Shown here piece after piece: positions 21,290 through 25,682 of a stretch of 64,000 nucleotides of DNA. This stretch comes from Thermosynechococcus sp. CL-1. Its GTDB lineage: Bacteria; Cyanobacteriota; Cyanobacteriia; Thermosynechococcales; Thermosynechococcaceae. The notes beneath the pieces are model-generated. The model searched no databases and was not told where the DNA came from. It saw only the letters and a program-made list of their open reading frames with translations. The DNA lies in the NCBI RefSeq assembly GCF_008386235.1, contig NZ_CP040671.1, positions 2,482,001 through 2,546,000 on the forward strand, given 5' to 3'. The position numbers and the translations under genes are program-made. How positions within the stretch are numbered: position 1 is the first letter of the stretch; every line of letters starts with the position of its first letter.

Positions 21290-22393
21290 GTGGGTTATAC
21301 GCTACCAGTTTTTGCGGCGGCGGCGGCGGTGGCGGCATTGCGTTGCCTTACGGAAGGAACCTGTCCCAAGGAAATCACCCTTGCGCTGCTACGCCCCAAT
21401 CGCTGTGCAACCCTATCCATTGCCCAAGGGGCATCCTTAGATGATCAGCAGGCCTTGGCCATTACCTACAGTGAACCGAGTGATGCCCTTGATCTCACCC
21501 GCCATACCCCGATCTGGGCTTGGGTGCGCTGGCAAGACCCTGCAACTGCTCCCAAAATTCACATTGAGGGGGGCTTTGGGGTGGGGCGCGATCGCGCCAC
21601 GGGCGAGGCAGCTATCTATCGCTATGCCCGCTTGTTGTTAACCACTAACCTGTTGCTCTATTGTCCTAAGGAGCGGGCGATCGCCGTCACGATTCTCCTG
21701 CCCCAAGGGAAAGACTTAGCAGAGCGCACCTCCAATGCGGCCTTTGGCATTGTTGAGGGACTCTCCCTACTGGGAACCACTGCCTTAGCACAACCCCTCA
21801 CAGCCTCGGAGCAACTGGAGCGCTATCGCGAGGACTTAGCCCAGAAAGCAGCAAAATCTCCCATCCTCGTCTTTTGTATTGGCGAGAACGGCCTTCAGGT
21901 AGCCCAACAACTCCAGATTCCCCCTTCCCTGTGTGTAAAAACTGCCAATTGGCTAGGGCCAATGCTGGTGGCCGCTGCTCAACACAAGGTTCAACAGTTG
22001 CTCCTCTTGGGTTACCACGGCAAATTAATTAAACTCGCTGGCGGCATTTTCCATACCCATCACCACCTTGCGGATGCTCGCCAAGAAATTCTCACCGCCT
22101 TTTGTGCCCTTGCAGGCTTAGACCCAGAGATTCTGCATCAGGTGTGGCAAGCACCAACGGTTGAGGCTGCCCTCAAATTTTTAGCAACAATGGCTCCCCA
22201 AGCCTTACCTGAGATTCTCAGCCACATTGCCAACCGCATTGATGAGCGCGCCATTACCTATATCCATGCCCATTGTGCTGCTCCCATCAGACGGTCATTA
22301 CAGGTGGGATGTGCCTTGTTTGGGCGCGATCGCCAAATTATCGCCATCAGCGAGGCAGGAAACCTAATTTTGACAAGGATTAGGCTATACTAA
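21290..22393 (+). CDS. cbiD: Cobalt-precorrin-5B C1-methyltransferase
   Basis: A 367-residue CbiD, which transfers a methyl group from S-adenosylmethionine to C1 of cobalt-precorrin-5B in the oxygen-independent cobalamin pathway. Recognised from the N-terminal FAAAAAVAALRCLTEGTCP (the family has TGTCAAAAAKAA-like sequence; here the order is changed), the GGFGVGRDRATGEAAI segment, and LGYHGKLIKLAGGIFHTH, where the motif for the methyl-transfer region lies. The start is GTG at 21290. It is the last plus-strand core gene before an AT-rich accessory island. Confidence 0.88.
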   Translation: MGYTLPVFAAAAAVAALRCLTEGTCPKEITLALLRPNRCATLSIAQGASLDDQQALAITYSEPSDALDLTRHTPIWAWVRWQDPATAPKIHIEGGFGVGRDRATGEAAIYRYARLLLTTNLLLYCPKERAIAVTILLPQGKDLAERTSNAAFGIVEGLSLLGTTALAQPLTASEQLERYREDLAQKAAKSPILVFCIGENGLQVAQQLQIPPSLCVKTANWLGPMLVAAAQHKVQQLLLLGYHGKLIKLAGGIFHTHHHLADARQEILTAFCALAGLDPEILHQVWQAPTVEAALKFLATMAPQALPEILSHIANRIDERAITYIHAHCAAPIRRSLQVGCALFGRDRQIIAISEAGNLILTRIRLY

Positions 22394-22582: not shown

Positions 22583-23359
22583 CTACCCAAATGAGATGCT
22601 AACTTCATCCCAGCGGCCTGATGGTGCGATTGTCTTCAACTCATCAATAGACTTAAATTTTCTACCCTGTTTAATTTCTTGAATAATTTTTTCAGCTTCT
22701 TTAAGCTCTAACCTCGGAACACTCTTGGCAAGATTCTTAGCGTTTTTATAGGAGTTGATGCGCACAGATTTTTGTGGATTTAGATTAGTCTTTGTCTCTT
22801 TAGAGATATGTTGCTGCAATTCACTAAATTTGCTTTTCAGATTATCCAATTCTTGGAAAATTTTTTCTAGAAAATTTACAATAGCCTTATTTTGGTCATT
22901 TAAGCTCTTCTGTAACTCAGAAAATAATTTCATAACTGATTGGGAATCTTGATCAACTAAGTTACTTCTCTCTGATTCTTGTGAATAAGAACCATCATCT
23001 TTAGAATTTATTTGCAAGATAGATTTGAATCTTTCTTGGAAGGTTAGAACTTCTTCATCTTCAAGCTCAATTCTTGATGCCCATAATTGATGGATACCCA
23101 ATTCACGGGCAAATTCAACTATCTCCTTGCCGAAGACAACTTCATACGCTGTCTCACCTTCTGGTGTAGTGACTGGACGAATAATGAGGGGGATGAGGTT
23201 GGTTTTATATTTGTCTAAGTCTTCACGGATCAGTTGTGGTGAAGCAGAGAATAAGTCTTTGGGGTAGGTCTCTGGTACTGTCAGATAATCAATATGAATC
23301 TGACCCTGATGTGTCTGATGTAAGCCGAGGTGCTTCGAGATGTGATTGGAGTGACTCAT
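22583..23359 (-). CDS. ParB-like partner protein with C-terminal helix-hairpin-helix motif
   Basis: 258 residues. The N-terminal third (IHIDYLTVPETYPKD to RIELEDEEV, about residues 22-105) looks like a ParB/sulfiredoxin-type domain. However, the GERRxRA CTP/DNA-binding motif of ParB is replaced by FGKEIVEFARELG. The middle (about 130-195) is Lys/Glu/Gln-rich and probably coiled coil. The C-terminus (SYKNAKNLAKSVPRLELKEA to FKSIDELKTI) has the spacing of a helix-hairpin-helix DNA-binding motif. It begins 3 nt after the ParA-type ATPase stop and is markedly AT-rich compared with flanking genes. I infer a partner of that ATPase. Confidence 0.6.
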   Translation of the reverse strand: MSHSNHISKHLGLHQTHQGQIHIDYLTVPETYPKDLFSASPQLIREDLDKYKTNLIPLIIRPVTTPEGETAYEVVFGKEIVEFARELGIHQLWASRIELEDEEVLTFQERFKSILQINSKDDGSYSQESERSNLVDQDSQSVMKLFSELQKSLNDQNKAIVNFLEKIFQELDNLKSKFSELQQHISKETKTNLNPQKSVRINSYKNAKNLAKSVPRLELKEAEKIIQEIKQGRKFKSIDELKTIAPSGRWDEVSISFG

Positions 23360-23362
23360 ACT

Positions 23363-24709
23363 CTATGATGCCTGAGTAAAAAGATAGCGAGCTAAATTTT
23401 CAAATGAAGTCGTTAAATCATCAATCGATTCTTTATCTGATCGATCTAATTCTTCATAAAATTTTCTACTAAATATCGGTTGCTGAGACTCTGTGGCTCG
23501 CAACATCACAACTCGGTGTGCAATCCATGTTGATTCGGGTAGAATTTGCACGGTCTGTCTGCCATTGGCTGCTTTTTCAAGAATATTCGACAACTTCTCT
23601 TTCATCTCATAGTTAGCTGCCGATGTTGTACGATTATACATACTCACAGCGATTCCAAGGGGTCGAGGCGGAGTTTCCATGGCATCCCTCATGGCCTCAA
23701 GGCGGGCTAGAACGTACTCTATTGCCCGTATAGGGTAGGGGGCAAATTGCGTCGGTATGAGTACCCCATCAGACGCCATTAAAGCAATGGCATTGACTTT
23801 ACCAAAGGCGGGTGGTGGATCAATCAGCACAATGTCATAGCCATGATTTTTGAGTTTTCGTTGTAATACCCGATCAATATCAATCGTGCTGATGAGTGCG
23901 GGTTCCTTGTCAGCTAGGCGAATGTGGGCGGGAACAATGTCAAGGTGTAGGTTGCCCCAAGCTCTTTGATAGACCACATCTTCTAGGCCAACCTTTGGCT
24001 CTAGCAATAGGTCAGCAATATCCTTCTTGCCTTGCTCTTCTACATCTTTGAGGGGGTTAATGCCGACGCCAATGGTTAAGTTAGACTGTGGGTCAATATC
24101 AATCAAGAGAACTCGCTTACCCATCGTGGCAAAGGCAGCACCAAGATTGAGGGTTAGCGTTGTTTTGCCAACGCCCCCCTTGTGATTAAAGACGGTAATG
24201 ATCATGGGTGACTCCTTAGAAGTGGTTGAGGAGATAGAAAAACTCTTTGCAAGTGCCTTTTCAAAATAATGATAGACTTTGAGCCTTTGCTGGGTTAAGG
24301 CAGTCACTAGAGCAGCGGCTGCAGAGCGGTGTAAAATTTTAGTCAGTTTCTGAATGGTTTGTTGATCGAGGATCCCTGAAGCACATGTCACCTGCTGAAG
24401 TGGTTCTCTAAGGGGATTTTGATACAAAAGGTGGTATTCTCGGCCATTGGTGAGTAACCCAAAAACAGCCTGCGCTGCTTCCATGTAGTACCTCAATTGC
24501 TGGCCACCCGTCAGCCGGGACTGCGCTGGGGTTTTCACCTCAATGATCAGATAGTTCAGGGGGCGATCGCCCGCCATCGGTAAGGCCACCAAAAAATCAG
24601 GGTAGCCTTTTCCAATTCGAGGTTTGGCTTGATACTCAGAAGACTGATAGCCCCACTGCTTGAGCAACGGTAGGATAATTTTCTGTTCCGTATTTGCTTC
24701 ATTACCCAT
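23363..24709 (-). CDS. PD-(D/E)XK nuclease-like domain fused to ParA ATPase
   Basis: 448 residues with two domains. Residues 1-150 resemble the HsdR N-terminal type of PD-(D/E)XK nuclease: P37-D38 in GKGYPDFLVAL and E57-V58-K59 in LIIEVKTPAQSR, followed by GGQQLRYYMEAAQ and LLTNGREYHLLY. From residue 169 comes a complete ParA/MinD ATPase with deviant Walker A KGGVGKTT (about 177-184), LLIDIDPQSNLT and VLIDPPPAF. ParA drives DNA or cargo positioning; type I restriction subunits share the nuclease fold. An internal ATG at M169 carries its own AAGGAG site (see separate entry), so free ParA of 280 residues may also be made. The neighbours are a ParB-like protein and a SUKH protein. Confidence 0.8.
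   Translation of the reverse strand: MGNEANTEQKIILPLLKQWGYQSSEYQAKPRIGKGYPDFLVALPMAGDRPLNYLIIEVKTPAQSRLTGGQQLRYYMEAAQAVFGLLTNGREYHLLYQNPLREPLQQVTCASGILDQQTIQKLTKILHRSAAAALVTALTQQRLKVYHYFEKALAKSFSISSTTSKESPMIITVFNHKGGVGKTTLTLNLGAAFATMGKRVLLIDIDPQSNLTIGVGINPLKDVEEQGKKDIADLLLEPKVGLEDVVYQRAWGNLHLDIVPAHIRLADKEPALISTIDIDRVLQRKLKNHGYDIVLIDPPPAFGKVNAIALMASDGVLIPTQFAPYPIRAIEYVLARLEAMRDAMETPPRPLGIAVSMYNRTTSAANYEMKEKLSNILEKAANGRQTVQILPESTWIAHRVVMLRATESQQPIFSRKFYEELDRSDKESIDDLTTSFENLARYLFTQAS
24203..24217 (-). promoter_or_regulatory. Internal ribosome binding site and start for a free ParA
   Basis: On the minus strand AAGGAG (24217-24212) precedes an in-frame ATG (24205-24203) with the ideal 6-nt spacer. 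This ATG is codon 169 of the fusion gene and lies 8 residues before the ParA Walker A motif, exactly where a stand-alone ParA would begin. The frame is open straight through it. Both a fusion and a separate ParA could therefore be translated. Confidence 0.6.
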
Positions 24710-24886: not shown

Positions 24887-25510
24887 TCACTCCAGTATAT
24901 TTTTGGGGGTTTGAAGCATAATTTCTTCATACTCTGGATTGAATTGATAGTCGCCTGCGATCAACTGCTGAGCATCGTGACTGAGTAAGTCTTCAAAGGA
25001 ATTAGCAAGAATTTCATAGCTAGAGTTTTCGTCACAAACCTCGATCACCTGCCCGATCGTCCCTGTGGGCGCGGGGTCAAGGTCAATGTATCGCAGAATG
25101 TCACCATTCATACAAGTAATTGGAATCCAGTGGGGATGATAAATCAACGGTTTCACCGCCCCTTTGATAAAAATAACTTGGGAAGCCACCCGATTCTTCC
25201 AAAAGGAAATGCTAAAGAAATCAGGGTCTTGGCAACTGCGGCCAATGTCTTGATCTAGTTCGTATTGCTGGATGATGTCATCGCAGGAGAGGAGCTTATT
25301 CCCATCTCCAAGTAGTGCCCCGACTATACCAGATTCGCCATTGTGCAGACTGAGGAATTCTTTGAAGCAGGGGGGCAGTGGTAGGCCAATGGCAGACTCC
25401 ACTCTGGCAATTTCAGCAGCACTAGCGGGTGGGTTCAGTCCTTCTAGGACGTTTGGCGCATGGTTTCTCATCCAGTCAAGGATGATCGCTAAGCTCTCAT
25501 GAATGCTCAT
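24887..25510 (-). CDS. SMI1/KNR4 (SUKH superfamily) protein
   Basis: 207 residues. The core (PPASAAEIARVESAIGLPLP, then CFKEFLSLHNGESG, then the FWKNRVASQVIFIKG region and WIPITCMNGDILRYIDLDP) is the SMI1/KNR4 fold. Bacterial SUKH proteins are mostly immunity proteins against polymorphic or contact-dependent toxins, especially nucleases; others have undefined roles. No toxin gene with a secretion module is adjacent. It lies upstream of the nuclease-ParA gene on the same strand with a 177-nt gap. The start at 25510 is chosen over an upstream extension of 40 codons because MSIHESLAII begins the domain. Confidence 0.82.
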   Translation of the reverse strand: MSIHESLAIILDWMRNHAPNVLEGLNPPASAAEIARVESAIGLPLPPCFKEFLSLHNGESGIVGALLGDGNKLLSCDDIIQQYELDQDIGRSCQDPDFFSISFWKNRVASQVIFIKGAVKPLIYHPHWIPITCMNGDILRYIDLDPAPTGTIGQVIEVCDENSSYEILANSFEDLLSHDAQQLIAGDYQFNPEYEEIMLQTPKNILE

Positions 25511-25682
25511 CAGTGATTCTCCAGTGATACTTTCTGGCAGCAGGCAGAGACATACCATTCTTGTCACAAAGACACTCAAAACTCTGAAAACCGGTACAGA
25601 AGAGAATCGCATCCCCTTCATGTACGCCACATTTCAGAAAAGAGCTGTCGCACAATAGCAATAGATGCTTGAGGTGAAGCAG

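Follow-up and report, generated by a model that had tools for sequence, protein, structure and literature searches.

A restriction-type nuclease fused to ParA and its ParB-fold partner form a mobile two-gene module in cyanobacteria: a candidate DNA-guarding system

Two adjacent genes in the 64,000-nucleotide stretch of DNA analyzed here (the window) make up an accessory, mobile module, in which a predicted nuclease of the restriction type is joined to a ParA ATPase and accompanied by a partner with a predicted ParB-like fold. Gene A (23363–24709, minus strand) encodes the 448-residue nuclease-ParA fusion, and was identified from its open reading frame, Pfam matches, AlphaFold2 and Foldseek results, and recurrence in GTDB genomes. 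Gene B (22583–23359, minus strand), identified from its open reading frame, a structure model, and Foldseek, encodes a ParB_N-like adaptor of 258 residues and follows A in the same orientation after a gap of 3 bases. We put the chance that this horizontally moving, accessory two-gene module acts against incoming or abnormal DNA at about even. Our fuller proposal is offered tentatively, with rather less than even confidence: a ParA-type ATPase would carry and switch a restriction-type nuclease, controlled by a ParB-fold adaptor whose DNA-reading domain can be swapped, and these would constitute a new DNA-guarding system with at least three branches in cyanobacteria.

The plus strand of the gene A interval was full of stops, and the 448-residue frame lies on the minus strand. 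Translation of that frame contained the motifs P37-D38 and E57-V58-K59 that the preliminary description had reported. In profile searches, the C-terminal part was ParA, and residues 1–95 matched HSDR_N_2 (E = 4.7e-5) and HSDR_N (E = 2.4e-4) just below the curated Pfam cut-offs. Each of these profiles also matched 28 of 31 homologous N-domains (E ≤ 0.01; best values 1e-9 and 2e-8, respectively). An AlphaFold2 model of the N-domain, built from an alignment of 31 sequences, had a pLDDT of 88 and a pTM of 0.82, and the order of its elements (helix, strands, helix, strand) was that expected for a PD-(D/E)XK fold. The top PDB match in Foldseek was the HsdR fragment 3h1t (probability 1.00, E = 8.5e-4), which provided the structural match to the PD-(D/E)XK fold on which the assignment of an HsdR-N-type module had been made to depend; the next was the type IIL enzyme DrdV (probability 0.94–0.95). 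Profile, model, and structural matches all agreed with that assignment. A PDB sequence-profile search with the N-domain returned only chance matches to a helical segment; the fold assignments of this domain and of B rest on the Foldseek searches, not on sequence-profile searches of the PDB.

The nuclease domain, including the helices at its C-terminal end (residues 1–157; 24239–24709, minus strand), was delimited using AlphaFold2, Foldseek, and residue conservation, and its expected motif set is E8, D38, E57, K59, Q71, and Y75. Among 36 homologues, most of which are about 20–50% identical overall, E57 was present in all 36, D38, K59, and E8 in 35 each, and Y75 in 33; position 71 was Q in 25 and K or R in 11. 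The codon for D38, the predicted metal ligand, is at 24596–24598, and those of the ExK motif (E57-V58-K59) are at 24533–24541, all on the minus strand. In nucleotide comparisons within the genus, dN/dS for the nuclease was 0.10–0.21 in five pairs and 0.3–0.6 in two pairs so close that few changes separate them. The ParA domain and the ParB-like domain of B were also under purifying selection in these comparisons, and the linker and the C-terminal half of B changed faster. Because D38, E57, and K59 are conserved and the domain is under purifying selection, the nuclease domain appears to be in use. We are confident in the prediction, drawn from the model and the alignment, that residues 1–157 of A form an HsdR-N-type PD-(D/E)XK domain whose catalytic residues are intact.

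A restriction-type fold can bind DNA and leave it uncut, and P37 varied across the homologues, in which D38 was conserved; the fold might therefore serve only DNA binding or regulation, with A-B as a nucleoid-associated or regulatory pair. We consider this improbable, because such a role would not demand the metal-binding and catalytic residues, and D38, E57, and K59 were kept in 35 or all 36 homologues despite their low overall identity. No full-length defence-model match to A was found with PADLOC; the partial matches were all to PDC-M28B (E = 1e-10, residues 103–253, 143 of 438 profile positions).

In its fold and in its E / D / ExK / Q-Y set, the N-domain resembles the HsdR N-terminal nuclease (PF13588/PF04313) and type IIL/IIG enzymes such as DrdV. 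Unlike type I and type IIL restriction systems, A-B lacks an SF2 translocase, a methylase, and a specificity subunit, and a ParA switch ATPase replaces the motor. Neither an HsdR translocase nor HsdM or HsdS was found; ParA alone follows the nuclease domain, and B is the sole recurrent neighbour.

The ParA domain (residues 169–448; 23366–24205, minus strand) matched AAA_31 (E = 1.3e-40) and the ParA-like partition protein family phrog_164 (2.7e-47). It is intact and has the deviant Walker A that had been attributed to it, KGGVGKTT (residues 177–184; 24158–24181, minus strand), in which the residues checked (K177, G178, G179, and K182) were invariant in the 36 homologues. A possible internal start (24203–24217, minus strand) is formed by AAGGAGT (24217–24211), five bases ahead of ATG169 (24205–24203), the codon for the first ParA residue. 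ATG occupied the ParA start in 32 of the 36 fusions, and GTG in one more, although the linker could not be aligned. One locus, in a Cyanosarcina radialis MAG (L138, 5677–7290, plus strand), encodes a ParA without the nuclease, beginning at the position equivalent to M169, and retains B; judged by its sequence, this is a locus that has lost its nuclease. Given the conserved ATG and the L138 locus, a separate ParA-only product from ATG169 is plausible. Only some members of this genus, and a few others, had the strong internal ribosome-binding site, which was ruled out as a family-wide feature. Synonymous constraint was also considered as a sign of a second product; the low linker dS seen in some pairs was not upheld codon by codon.

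In the model of B, a ParB/Srx-fold domain lacking a GERR box (residues 15–117; 23009–23317, minus strand; Foldseek and Pfam) is followed by a predicted coiled coil, modelled as one long helix of 59 residues (134–192; 22784–22960, minus strand), and by a helix-hairpin-helix-like C-terminal end (200–258; 22586–22762, minus strand; the model and the Pfam families of homologues). Among the first Foldseek matches were ParB-CDP (6sdk), Noc (7ol9), and PadC (6ryk), all with probability 1.00, and the match to ParB 6sdk bears out the report of a ParB-like gene beside A. The B profile gave mostly coiled-coil matches in the PDB, together with a weak match to Spo0J (E = 0.04). Pfam ParB_N was found in 12 of 28 B homologues. 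The C-terminal families among the 28 were Rho_N (10), HHH_3 (6), SAP (3), and HeH (1), the helix-hairpin-helix of B being exchanged in homologues for Rho_N, SAP, or HeH. The GERR (CTP-binding) box occurred in none of the 28 and in none of 10 members of the related partner family c3, and HTH_ParB was absent among the families listed for the 28 homologues (E ≤ 0.01; 25 of 27 families). From the model and its Foldseek matches, we conclude with confidence that B is an adaptor of the ParB_N fold, followed by a predicted coiled coil and, at the C-terminus, a small helical domain of a type associated with DNA binding. With the GERR box and the ParB HTH missing, B is ParB-like in fold and in operon place, and falls short of two criteria for a partition ParB.

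Recurrence of the module was examined in a scan of 84,980 GTDB species with patterns taken from the ParA part only and thus blind to both the nuclease and B. The scan yielded 37 loci, all cyanobacterial. The nuclease was present in 36 (the exception being L138), and B lay directly downstream of A in all 37, mostly within 30 bases or overlapping, which suggests translational coupling. Distances among the nuclease, ParA, and B sequences were correlated (r = 0.72, 0.81, and 0.83; P = 0.001). A and B are therefore adjacent in every locus of the scan and co-vary. This survey recovered the same two-domain order with the same neighbour that the preliminary description had proposed to look for, and homologous loci carrying the same fusion dispose of its reservation that the fusion could be an assembly error. 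A mis-assembly or a chance reading frame has next to no probability, being already refuted by these homologues, by the closed genomes that contain the fusion, and by the purifying selection.

The nuclease-ParA fusions of cyanobacteria fall into three divergent branches, and a ParB_N-type partner accompanies nearly all of them. A itself belongs to a branch found only in cyanobacteria, with an A-type match in 53 of 386 cyanobacterial genomes (E ≤ 1e-40). Branch (ii) is paired with its own partner, c3, which consists of ParB_N (detected in 9 of 10), a coil, and a helical end. Branch (iii) was present in 18 of 146 cyanobacteria (E ≤ 1e-50). A B- or c3-like gene comes next at 15 of the 17 branch-(iii) loci examined outside this genus; within the genus, branch (iii) had no such neighbour. 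The genome that carries A-B also has a branch-(iii) paralogue that retains D and ExK (L021, 6376–7767, minus strand; G000:C1:1092378-1093766), as do congeners. Some branch-(iii) copies are on short contigs of 36–55 kb.

The setting of the module is AT-rich, as had been noted (46% GC in A and 37% in B vs 53% in the window). This composition relative to the host, the pairing of ParA with a ParB_N-type protein, and the short contigs of some branch-(iii) copies would fit a relic or captured plasmid partition cassette with a nuclease that works in competition between plasmids or in post-segregational killing. As in ParABS, a ParA with a deviant Walker A shares an operon with a partner of the ParB_N fold. 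Unlike in ParABS, this ParA is fused to a nuclease, the ParB HTH is replaced in the B family by HHH, Rho_N, or SAP, the GERR box is missing, and A-B has no parS-like site and was not found in PLSDB. No N-domain homologue fused to ParA was present among 72,556 plasmids, and phages and IMG/VR viral contigs likewise gave no match. At or near the module there was no parS-like site, iteron, or repeat array, where a distant or degenerate site is possible. On the strength of these plasmid, phage, and viral searches, we rejected a plasmid or phage element as the identity of A-B. Together with the missing partition site and the form of B, they leave the suggestion of a selfish partition element unsupported, and a plasmid-derived cassette seems to us quite improbable.

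The chromosomal place of the module was compared in 11 genomes of the genus. A-B occupied a first site in five, namely this genome (G000), G001, G006, G007, and G009, a second site in G002, G004, and G005, and a third site in G010; it was not found in G003 and G008. The G010 copy was 46% identical to the G000 copy and 64% identical to a copy in another family, a pattern that indicates horizontal transfer at least once. The first site is bounded by genes of 267 and 200 amino acids and is empty in G002 and G004. This hotspot carries A-B in G001, G006, and G009, and in G005 it carries ResIII, an N6/N4 methylase, and Mrr_N, a type III restriction locus having no genes in common with A-B (L159, 3759–10713, minus strand; ResIII, 1143 amino acids). 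The methylase open reading frames of L159 (387 and 195 amino acids) may be one broken gene. At the second site, relatives had no other defence gene. Two loci, L119 and L038, contain broken copies of the module, as expected if it is dispensable. From these results we conclude firmly that A-B is accessory and mobile.

The far side of the first site is rearranged in G000, where CbiD follows instead of the 267-amino-acid gene. This CbiD-like gene (window 21290–22393, plus strand) lies beside the module and marks the edge where synteny with congeners breaks; its C-terminal third has a 96% identical partial copy at G000:C1:1656172-1656471. In G001, an IS605 OrfB-type transposase is located just downstream of B (L022, 5083–6184, minus strand). 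Upstream of A in the window is a SUKH-1 (SMI1/KNR4) gene (24887–25630, minus strand) that strongly matched the PADLOC candidate PDC-M40A (8e-25). It was rejected as a third cassette gene, being beside A-B only in G000, with a truncated fragment at the same place in G001. Because B is always present and the SUKH gene does not accompany the module from genome to genome, the conserved unit is two genes, not the three of the cassette first envisaged.

A role in host maintenance was weighed against these observations. ParA-ParB-like positioning on the nucleoid could deliver the nuclease to host DNA, for example in resolution or repair of polyploid chromosome copies. ParA proteins generally position cargo, A-B is chromosomal in closed genomes, and the branch-(iii) paralogue with intact D/ExK persists in this genome and its congeners, although no ParB-like gene adjoins it. 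We regard this role as unlikely: A-B is accessory, changes loci, and is broken in places, and branch (iii) itself is restricted to so few cyanobacteria. Accessory, mobile, and hotspot-sharing behaviour favours defence over housekeeping, and HsdR and DrdV, the matches of the nuclease domain, are both restriction enzymes. The defence alternative of the preliminary description stands in part, since accessory distribution, horizontal transfer, and the hotspot shared with a type III system agree with it, the last being one case in one genus. Against it, known defence genes were sparse nearby. Among 131 neighbours in other loci, strong PADLOC matches were SspH (2), mad3 (2), and mad8 (2); glycosyltransferases were the commonest neighbours in the GTDB loci, and other ParA proteins were also commoner than known defence genes. 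Broad enrichment in defence islands was weak, and we discarded it.

The mechanism that we propose for a defensive A-B draws on the behaviour of each part. ATP-bound ParA dimerises and binds DNA without sequence specificity, ParB-type partners stimulate hydrolysis via their N-terminus, and PD-(D/E)XK restriction domains often must pair to make a double-strand break. The ParA part of A might therefore bring two nuclease domains together through ATP-dependent dimerisation and nonspecific spreading on DNA. ATP-bound A would coat DNA with paired nuclease domains, and B would set where or when they act, recognizing its target through the swappable C-terminal domain and coiled-coil dimerisation and contacting ParA as ParB does. 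B might stimulate ATP hydrolysis, so that the nuclease stays dispersed, or might trap ParA-ATP on the target, leading to cutting. In species with the internal ribosome-binding site, a ParA-only product may damp the nuclease via mixed dimers. Foreign DNA could be singled out without a methylase by cues such as its topology, replication state, or ends.

There is a fair chance that A-B represents a new kind of system. McdAB, which positions carboxysomes, is likewise built from a ParA-type ATPase of cyanobacteria (McdA; PMC6328274) and a partner. It differs in that McdA is not described with a nuclease in the portion of PMC6328274 available to us, and in that B has a ParB_N fold; these systems are set apart by description. 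The available portion of a 2025 survey of ParB/Srx proteins (PMC12704722) reports ParB-CTPase folds that have combined with other domains and left canonical partition, gives ParB-DUF3850 as the sole fusion consistently next to parA, and contains no nuclease-ParA pair. No description of a nuclease-ParA fusion with a ParB-fold partner was found in the open-licence literature searched. ParA is among the best-studied bacterial positioning switches, and restriction-type nucleases are among the best-studied DNA cutters; the searched literature never joins them. If A-B defends, ParA-ParB logic (ATP-driven spreading plus a target-reading adaptor) can be converted to self/non-self surveillance, and A-B would count as a defence system native to cyanobacteria. 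Otherwise, a nuclease is tied to DNA positioning, which bears on the handling of chromosome copies in polyploid cyanobacteria. Either answer is directly testable, because the module is two small genes with a named catalytic residue.

Two further arrangements were observed among branch-(ii) loci. At L119 (3774–6974, minus strand), immediately beside a broken branch-(i) A plus B, lies a branch-(ii) ParA that is paired with c3 and carries a frame-broken SF1 helicase region where the HsdR-N domain would otherwise be. The N-terminal part of this second ParA resembles the C-terminal half of an SF1 helicase, the remainder of which is in the preceding frame-broken open reading frame. Having no such nuclease domain, it is the one clear exception to the conservation of the catalytic residues, and its sequence hints that ParA may be a platform with swappable effectors. 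In L101 (5152–9176, plus strand), L103, L104, and L105, a branch-(ii) A, c3, and a full-length B homologue (about 365 amino acids) lie within 2 kb, an arrangement of one ATPase with two adaptors.
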